Of a DNA stretch of 26,168 nucleotides, positions 25,013 through 25,800 are shown piece by piece. Source of the DNA: a virus; the IMG/VR virus record IMGVR_UViG_3300025652_000462, positions 1 through 26,168 of that record; one strand, 5' to 3'. A program made the position numbers and the translations under genes. The first letter of the stretch is position 1. Each line of letters starts with the position of its first letter. Under the pieces are notes generated by a model, which was given only the letters and a program-made list of their open reading frames with translations, had not been told where the DNA came from and ran no database searches.

Positions 25013-25351
25013 CTACGCACGAGGATTTTTCTTACGTGCTGTTGACGTTCTGGCGAAAGAGCGATTCTGAGACTTAGGCTGTACGGCAAGGTTAGTACGT
25101 CGGTTATCTGTTGGATTACCATTTTTATGTGCCACATCTTTTCCGTCTCCTTTTTTAACAGCCCCTGTCTTTACTAGAGCGTTACGTGCCGCATTACGGC
25201 TATCTCGTTTTTTAATCTGTTCTGGTCTACCGTGGTAGTTATCATACTCTTTGCGGTAGTTACGTGGCTTTGTAAGCGCACCACCTACCGACAGCTTCTT
25301 CTTAGCAGGTGCTTTTTTAGTTGCTGCTGTCTTTTTTACTCTAGGAGCCAT
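25013..25351 (-). CDS. HNH endonuclease
   Basis: 112 residues. A basic Lys/Ala tail (1-25) precedes YRKEYDNYHGRPEQIKKRDS and RNAARNALVKTGAVKKGDGK, then the HNH core KDVAHKNGNPTDN at 71-83 (D72, H75 as probable general base, N79, N83), NL at 87-88 and KSQNRSFAR to about 101. The residue before H75 is Ala where many relatives have His or Asp. Such proteins nick or cleave DNA; some phages use one together with terminase for packaging, others as free-standing homing enzymes. AAGGAAG lies four bases before the ATG. It borders the 23S rRNA-like segment at 25379-25477, a possible target or cargo. Confidence 0.88.
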   Translation of the reverse strand: MAPRVKKTAATKKAPAKKKLSVGGALTKPRNYRKEYDNYHGRPEQIKKRDSRNAARNALVKTGAVKKGDGKDVAHKNGNPTDNRRTNLAVQPKSQNRSFARTSTARKKNPRA

Positions 25352-25363
25352 GATACTTCCTTA

Positions 25364-25422
25364 CGTATAAATAAAAACGGGCGAGGACAGCACTACCTGT
25401 TTCCTCGACCTGACACCTGCCC
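25364..25422 (-). terminator. Possible terminator or structured leader upstream of the HNH gene
   Basis: Minus strand: CGAGGA, bulge AA, CAG, loop GTAGTG, CTG and TCCTCG form a nine-pair hairpin (25382-25407), continued by CCCG and a T-rich run TTTTTATTT. A GGG at 25420-25422 can pair with the CCC next to the T run, extending the stem. The spacing of the T run makes it a mediocre terminator. The same bases are part of the rRNA-like segment. Confidence 0.35.
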
Positions 25423-25477
25423 ATAGCGACCGTAACGTAACGTCCTAAGGTAGCGATAACTTTTTCTGCACGAATGG
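25379..25477 (+). ncRNA. Miniature 23S rRNA domain IV-like segment
   Basis: On the plus strand, collinear blocks match bacterial 23S rRNA domain IV recalled from memory: ACAGCACT (25387-25394), TGACACCTGCCC (25411-25422), GACCGTAACGTAACGTC (25428-25444, a helix-69 counterpart), TCCTAAGGTAGCGA (25443-25456) and CTGCACGAATGG (25466-25477). In real rRNA the last four span about 150 bases; here they span 67, because the regions of helices 68 and 71 are missing. The helix-69 counterpart folds as GAcCGU/ACGUC around loop AACGUA. No good plus-strand promoter is visible, only a TATAAA at 25366-25371 without a -35 box. Whether it is transcribed, and from which strand, is unknown. The surrounding 25352-25503 has no gene. 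Confidence 0.75.
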
Positions 25478-25503
25478 ACGACTTCGGGGGTGAATTAGTT
25501 TAA

Positions 25504-25800
25504 TTACATCTTTTTAGATGCGTAGCCCCCACCCATCATCTTCTTTGATGAGGATTGTGTAGGAGACATGGATGCACCACAGTTAGCATAGCCACCTTTG
25601 TTGTACTTCTTAGGCATACCACCCTTAGACATAGCCTTTTCACGTGCTATAGCATTTTCAGTGTTTTCGGTAAAGTCTGCACCCTCTGAACCTACTTTAG
25701 CAAGAACCTTCTTAGCATCCTTACGCTCTTGTACTGTGTAACGCTCTGGCTCACGAGTGATTGCCATAGCTTTAGTGGGGGTCATTGTTGCTTCAGACAT
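25504..25800 (-). CDS. Small Gly/Lys-rich protein with GG motif, unknown function
   Basis: 98 residues. The N-terminal half is charged and helical (AITREPERYTVQERKDAKKV). The C-terminal half is Gly/Ser/Lys/Met-rich with SKGGMPKKYNKGGYANCGAS at about 58-77 and ends MMGGGYASKKM. The KGGMPKKYNKGG segment resembles GG motifs in the 573-residue virion protein and the partial protein at the left edge. GGA stands ten bases before the first ATG; a second ATG five codons on is possible. Role unknown. Confidence 0.72.
   Translation of the reverse strand: MSEATMTPTKAMAITREPERYTVQERKDAKKVLAKVGSEGADFTENTENAIAREKAMSKGGMPKKYNKGGYANCGASMSPTQSSSKKMMGGGYASKKM

Follow-up and report, generated by a model that had tools for sequence, protein, structure and literature searches.

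Small RNAs derived from the 3′ untranslated regions (3′UTRs) of bacterial mRNAs, of which CpxQ is reportedly an example, typically have a terminator-bounded 3′ end. In archaea and eukaryotes, box C/D and H/ACA guide RNAs are complementary to conserved parts of the large-subunit (LSU) rRNA, including helices 69 to 71; we know of no such guide RNA machinery in bacteria. At the DNA level, a universal 23S region is recognized by I-CeuI, I-PpoI, and R2, and the 15-mer GTCCTAAGGTAGCGA is the core of the I-CeuI site. Imitation of rRNA is known from r-leaders, which precede ribosomal protein genes and reproduce a structure that binds protein (PMC7247131).

We analyzed a viral DNA stretch of 26,168 nucleotides (IMG/VR record IMGVR_UViG_3300025652_000462; the whole stretch is referred to here as the window) that carries a 23S rRNA-like element in a gap between two genes. 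As in 3′UTR-derived small RNAs, the putative seed follows a stop codon and the 3′ end would come from the gene's own terminator, but the element is phage encoded and its complement is the 23S core, whereas the known targets of such RNAs are mRNAs or small RNAs. With box C/D and H/ACA guides it shares the complementarity of a short (here putative) RNA to conserved functional parts of LSU rRNA. It also overlaps the same universal 23S sequence as the targets of I-CeuI, I-PpoI, and R2; unlike these targets, the matched segment varies among phages, its orientation is tied to the gene end, and there is no consistent endonuclease gene. The element resembles r-leaders in being rRNA-like outside rRNA genes, but it lies on the opposite strand, its stems are not kept, and no ribosomal protein gene is found downstream, the few identified neighbors being head, terminase, or lysis genes or unknown.

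Positions 25411 to 25485 of the plus strand contain collinear blocks that match helices 67 and 69 to 71 of 23S rRNA domain IV, in the same order as in the rRNA, with the alphaproteobacterial (Ruegeria) domain IV as the reference (Table 1). Exact collinear blocks of ≥7 nt cover 56 nt in total, a value reached by none of 2,000 dinucleotide shuffles (maximum, 32); of 206 other rRNA tiles, the best gave 29 nt, as did the best unrelated tile in the window. The resemblance to rRNA reported in the initial annotation of this DNA is real, significant, intergenic, and specific to the helix 69-71 region. That annotation listed four blocks of 12 to 17 bases plus one of 8: their order and strand hold, but only two are exact at 12 to 15 nt, and the remaining ones attain about 12 nt only with mismatches or gaps. 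The octamer that it had put at E. coli position 1775 (ACAGCACT, 25387-25394) sits within the terminator-like hairpin, and the match does not depend on it. The element lacks both helix 68 (∼70 nt) and the hairpin of helix 71, and neither cmscan against the Rfam LSU rRNA models, even at E ≤ 1, nor a direct search of the whole record with RF02541 yielded a match, which together indicate that the element is not simply a captured piece of rRNA. One block, ACGACTTC, is alphaproteobacterial and not found in E. coli, which fits the nearest relatives of the window, the SAR116 and Roseobacter phages HMO-2011, CRP-1, and CRP-345. The element itself had no blast match in these cultured relatives.

Table 1. 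Coordinates of the element, its flanking genes, and related features (window positions unless a locus is named)
Feature	Coordinates	Strand	Details
Upstream gene, 98 aa	25504..25800	-	TAA stop at 25506-25504; no PHROG match
3′UTR/intergenic gap with the element (gene-sense RNA)	25352..25503	-	
Antisense to 23S ∼1962-1985	25466..25485	-	GAAGTCGTCCATTCGTGCAG; blocks of 8 and 12 nt
Antisense to 23S 1922-1936, between helices 69 and 71	25442..25456	-	TCGCTACCTTAGGAC; 15 nt, exact
Antisense to part of helix 69	25430..25441	-	GTTACGTTACGG; imperfect
Antisense to 23S ∼1828-1838, helix 67/68	25411..25422	-	GGGCAGGTGTCA; one mismatch, which a G-U pair can accommodate
Terminator-like hairpin	25382..25407	-	CGAGGAAACAGGTAGTGCTGTCCTCG; stem kept in relatives via changes on both sides
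U-tract after hairpin	25370..25377	-	TTTTTATT
Downstream gene, 112 aa	25013..25351	-	ATG at 25351; AAGGAAG before the ATG
rRNA-like block CCTGCCC	25416-25422	+	Exact versus Ruegeria 23S; within 25411-25422 (TGACaCCTGCCC, one mismatch)
rRNA-like block CCGTAAC	25430-25436	+	Exact versus Ruegeria 23S
rRNA-like block GTCCTAAGGTAGCGA	25442-25456	+	15 nt; exact versus Ruegeria 23S
rRNA-like block CTGCACGAATGG	25466-25477	+	12 nt; exact versus Ruegeria 23S
rRNA-like block ACGACTTC	25478-25485	+	8 nt; exact versus Ruegeria 23S; absent from E. coli
Complement of the 16S 3′ end in enterobacterial phages	L131:2480-2530; L132; L137; L135:2510-2550; L365:1190-1225		

The minus strand encodes both genes flanking the gap as well as the window's main genes. 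The gap is therefore the 3′UTR of the gene ending at 25504, and as the rRNA-like blocks lie on the opposite strand, transcription would yield an RNA antisense to 23S rRNA. Read on the minus strand, the gap runs from the TAA stop through GAAGTCGTCCATTCGTGCAG, TCGCTACCTTAGGAC, GTTACGTTACGGTCG, and GGGCAGGTGTCA to the hairpin CGAGGA...TCCTCG, followed by CCCGTTTTTATT and the ATG of the next gene. This placement, on the gene strand between a stop codon and an intrinsic terminator, is that of a 3′UTR-derived small RNA; the terminator in the window was judged by eye from its hairpin and U-tract and was not flagged by our automatic terminator rule, which allows only shorter loops. The predicted duplex between the gene-strand RNA (25503-25399) and Ruegeria domain IV has an energy of −102 kcal/mol (mean of 200 shuffles, −57.6; best shuffle, −71.5), and domain IV is the best-pairing tile for this RNA across 16S and 23S rRNA. 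Complementarity and position can thus be read directly from the DNA, and we consider it an even call whether the element is, as these features suggest, a phage mRNA 3′UTR (25503-25352) antisense to 23S helices 67 and 69 to 71.

The element is not confined to the window. The exact 15-mer GTCCTAAGGTAGCGA is present in 90 IMG/VR stretches, as a single copy in each of the 30 records tested, and a second universal 15-mer, from helix 71 (TGTCGGGTAAGTTCC), is present in at least 120. Control 15-mers were found in 29 (CAGGGATAACTGGCT, which differs from the bacterial rRNA form and so acted as a random control), 15 (sarcin-ricin loop), and 22 (peptidyl transferase center) stretches. A 15-mer from 23S 1964-1978 gave 71 matches that were coding in 47 of 48 lineages and therefore does not, on its own, qualify as a conserved seed. 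We grouped matches by flanking similarity and called open reading frames (ORFs) by a simple method. The two motifs, both picked for matching rRNA, were intergenic in 28 of 41 and, among the matches listed, 21 of 56 lineages (49/97 combined), compared to 1/25, 0/13, 1/12, and 1/48 for the four control 15-mers (3/98 combined; P ∼ 2 × 10−15 by Fisher's test). Spurious ORFs overlapping the motif probably account for some of the coding calls (e.g., in L047, L146, and L200), so any bias would make the contrast an underestimate.

The intergenic copies also share an orientation. The gene located 3′ of the rRNA-like strand ends toward the motif in 46 of 49 intergenic groups (P ∼ 3 × 10−11), and by a hand count, 37 of 39 distinct intergenic lineages have the motif after a stop codon and antisense to the gene, often with an intrinsic terminator immediately downstream (a locus matching both motifs was counted once, and the tRNA-array class described below was left out, as its short ORF calls are unreliable). 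The distance from the stop codon to the motif ranges from 0 to some hundreds of nucleotides and is 0 or a few nucleotides in many lineages. On the gene strand, 12/21 and 5/28 groups had a strict intrinsic terminator downstream; on the other strand, 3/21 and 2/28 did. Overall, the arrangement of stop codon, element, and terminator-like hairpin occurs in about forty phage lineages with overlapping target windows of 15 to 40 nt within 23S ∼1908-1978. The exact segment matched differs by lineage (1907-1930, 1914-1936, 1922-1940, 1935-1958, or 1943-1958), and many copies consist of one window of 15 to 20 nt. Individual matches in the phage database are not significant (E values of 0.2 to 8), and the weight of the comparison comes from position and architecture.

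The multi-block form occurs at 33 loci including the window, downstream of differing genes: a small gene in the window, a head-assembly/scaffold protein (PHROG 1052) at most loci, and terminase-like proteins (named by eye from sequence) in L024 and L076. The adjoining hairpin keeps its stem with changes on both sides (CGAGG/CCTCG, CTAGG/CCTAG, and GTGAGGT/ACCTCAC). T4-like phages have the motif immediately after the stop codon (TAA-GGAACTTACCCGACA-GTAAGAACGAAG-hairpin-TTTTTTT), and the annotated cyanophage C48C1 (Kyanoviridae) has TAG-GAACTTACCCGACA-GTAAG and then GGGGGCGTAAGCCCCCTTTTTT. The element follows an endolysin/lysin gene in the Guernseyvirinae phages AH01 and TS33 and occupies the gap between converging operons in Jilinvirus and its relatives; elsewhere, it adjoins genes for an endolysin (L079), major head proteins (L086 and L242), or a head-assembly protein (L013). 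Capsid, head-assembly, terminase, or endolysin genes thus adjoin the element in several lineages with this arrangement. An Rfam scan of the cultured-phage loci found no known family at the element.

Helix 71 in rRNA has the structure GUCGG-GUAAGUU-CCGAC. Phage copies keep UGUCGGGUAAGUUCC but usually lose the partner strand CCGAC (GTTCCttag, GTTCCagag, GTTCCtatg, or GTTCCacct). Together with the single 15- to 20-nt windows that vary by lineage, this loss fits linear complementarity better than rRNA structure. Helix retention of the kind seen in r-leaders was likewise not found in the window: on both strands, the fold of its fragment is no better than that of shuffles (z = −0.60 for the window fold). 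For the helix 71 form, predicted folding of the gene strand is not better than that of the rRNA-like strand, which folds about equally well or slightly better. A comparison of substitutions for G-U compatibility was confounded by the identity of the rRNA base at each position.

These observations bear most directly on the strongest alternative, in which the plus strand yields a short RNA that folds like the helix 67-69-71 junction and, as a mimic or decoy, captures an rRNA-binding protein, a modifying enzyme, or a ribosome-targeting toxin. The element was initially annotated, at 25379-25477, as such a miniature domain IV, and its conserved structure was proposed as a check. The multi-block form does skip helices 68 and 71, as a trimmed domain would, and the slightly better folding of the rRNA-like strand in the helix 71 form points the same way. 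However, the element is opposite to the genes both here and in nearly all lineages counted, no strong plus-strand promoter was found at the element in the window, and the rRNA stems that a mimic would need are usually lost. We therefore regard a structural mimic as unlikely and as the weaker reading compared to antisense pairing.

A sense-strand RNA fits better in a minority class of large phages with tRNA arrays (L001, L004, L007, L014, L030, L042, L062, L070, L081, and L087). These carry GTCCTAAGGTAGCGA, often extended to 20 to 25 nt of helix 69, on the tRNA strand, so their RNA would be sense, and it lies within a partly conserved RNA-like element (GAATGCC...GGGATTACA...AACGGTCCTAAGGTAGCGA-hairpin-TAGCGA) at which an Rfam scan of these loci gave no match. 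The class falls outside the antisense explanation, and a mimic or decoy is possible there. Near two of these elements, we also noted phage tmRNA genes of ∼420 nt (L004:4713-5137 and L070:7175-7595).

For the other lineages, we propose that late phage mRNAs end in a 3′UTR element that would work like a 3′UTR-derived small RNA. Its terminator-bounded 3′ end would accumulate from the late mRNA and pair with helices 69 to 71 of free or still-assembling 50S subunits, where the region is expected to fold last and to be exposed; in the family of the window, the predicted pairing surrounds the base of helices 68 and 71, with both rRNA hairpins looped out. In 70S ribosomes, helices 68 to 71 are buried at the subunit interface. 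Late bacterial 50S precursors have helices 68, 69, and 71 in an immature state (PMC12560758), and in a mitochondrial precursor, helices 68 to 71 are kept partly unfolded (PMC8492066). Taken with their burial in 70S ribosomes, this suggests that the target would be reachable mainly on free or immature large subunits. Because phages depend on functional ribosomes, targeting of the ribosome core calls for a reason, and selectivity for such subunits may provide one. Whether pairing of the gene strand with 23S rRNA is the element's function seems to us about equally probable either way. The outcome may be that maturation or joining of host large subunits is held back late in infection or, alternatively, that phage mRNA is docked on 50S subunits; that the element RNA holds back 50S subunits is in itself doubtful. 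The wider proposition, that mRNA tails complementary to the helix 67-71 core of host 23S rRNA arose repeatedly in unrelated phages, which would thereby control or exploit host large subunits late in infection, falls slightly short of even in our judgment.

Pairing with 23S rRNA might instead serve the phage mRNA in cis, through 50S docking, post-termination ribosome recycling, or 3′-end protection. The position of the motif at the stop codon or a few nucleotides beyond it in many lineages and the highly expressed head genes that adjoin it are consistent with such a role, but the variable spacing from the stop codon and the location of the next cistron beyond the terminator make it quite improbable. 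Nearly the same low probability applies to a DNA-level target, i.e., a homing endonuclease, integrase, or transposon site at a universal position of the 23S gene. The identity of GTCCTAAGGTAGCGA with the I-CeuI site core fits such a target, mobile elements commonly land behind stop codons and close to terminators, and an integrase gene adjoins the element in phage KA2-1. Nevertheless, KA2-1 is the sole such case among the annotated contexts (part of the loci were annotated), the orientation bias is strong, and the variation of the matched window by lineage excludes a single recognition site; across these contexts, we did not find one conserved window with an enzyme gene nearby.

Chance matching, rRNA contamination, or a captured rRNA relic accounts for some matches (L077, L126, and L127 are chance coding matches or true rRNA, and a scan of bacterial genomes returned the true 23S of L126 and L127 and otherwise short chance matches) but is very unlikely as a general explanation given the intergenic excess over controls and the window shuffles. 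As the origin of the window element, rRNA contamination, an assembly chimera, and a captured relic were all rejected: the relic of a host rRNA operon suggested initially does not agree with the recurrence of the same short windows at the same kind of site in unrelated phages, and a chimera is very unlikely with 32 further multi-block loci in several gene contexts. Separately, full host 23S rRNA is present in the deposited phage records OR844775, OR850160, KM209255, and MZ092003, among others, probably as contamination.

The recurrent arrangement suggests that phages act on host ribosomes by a route not yet described, with expression, pairing in cells, and effect predicted from sequence. In agreement with the initial annotation, which knew of no such phage element, we found no phage RNA antisense to 23S rRNA in the open-licence literature and no Rfam match, which points to a class of phage RNA that is undescribed as far as that literature goes. 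If the proposal holds, natural antisense RNAs directed at the best-conserved functional region of the large subunit are encoded by many phages and would represent a new mode of host takeover at 50S maturation or subunit joining. Phage 3′UTRs, usually annotated as empty, would gain meaning, and the elements would offer natural sequences for probing the accessibility of helices 69 to 71 in living cells.

Several smaller features accompany the elements. In the enterobacterial phages (Jilinvirus, KA2-1, TS33, and AH01), the gene-strand RNA is also complementary to the 3′ end of 16S rRNA, 10 to 14 nt after the helix 71 complement (AGGAGGTGATCC in KA2-1 and AGGAGGTGAT in TS33), and a start codon at the right distance is absent. 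The hairpin loop ACAGCACTACCTGT or a close variant is located beside the element in L013, L024, L076, and the window (25382-25407), where gene contexts differ, as if the terminator traveled with the element. In L189, L237, and L256, two antisense blocks are joined, the helix 71 complement and the complement of CTGCACGAA (23S ∼1964-1972), and in L189 the two are separated by an extra hairpin.
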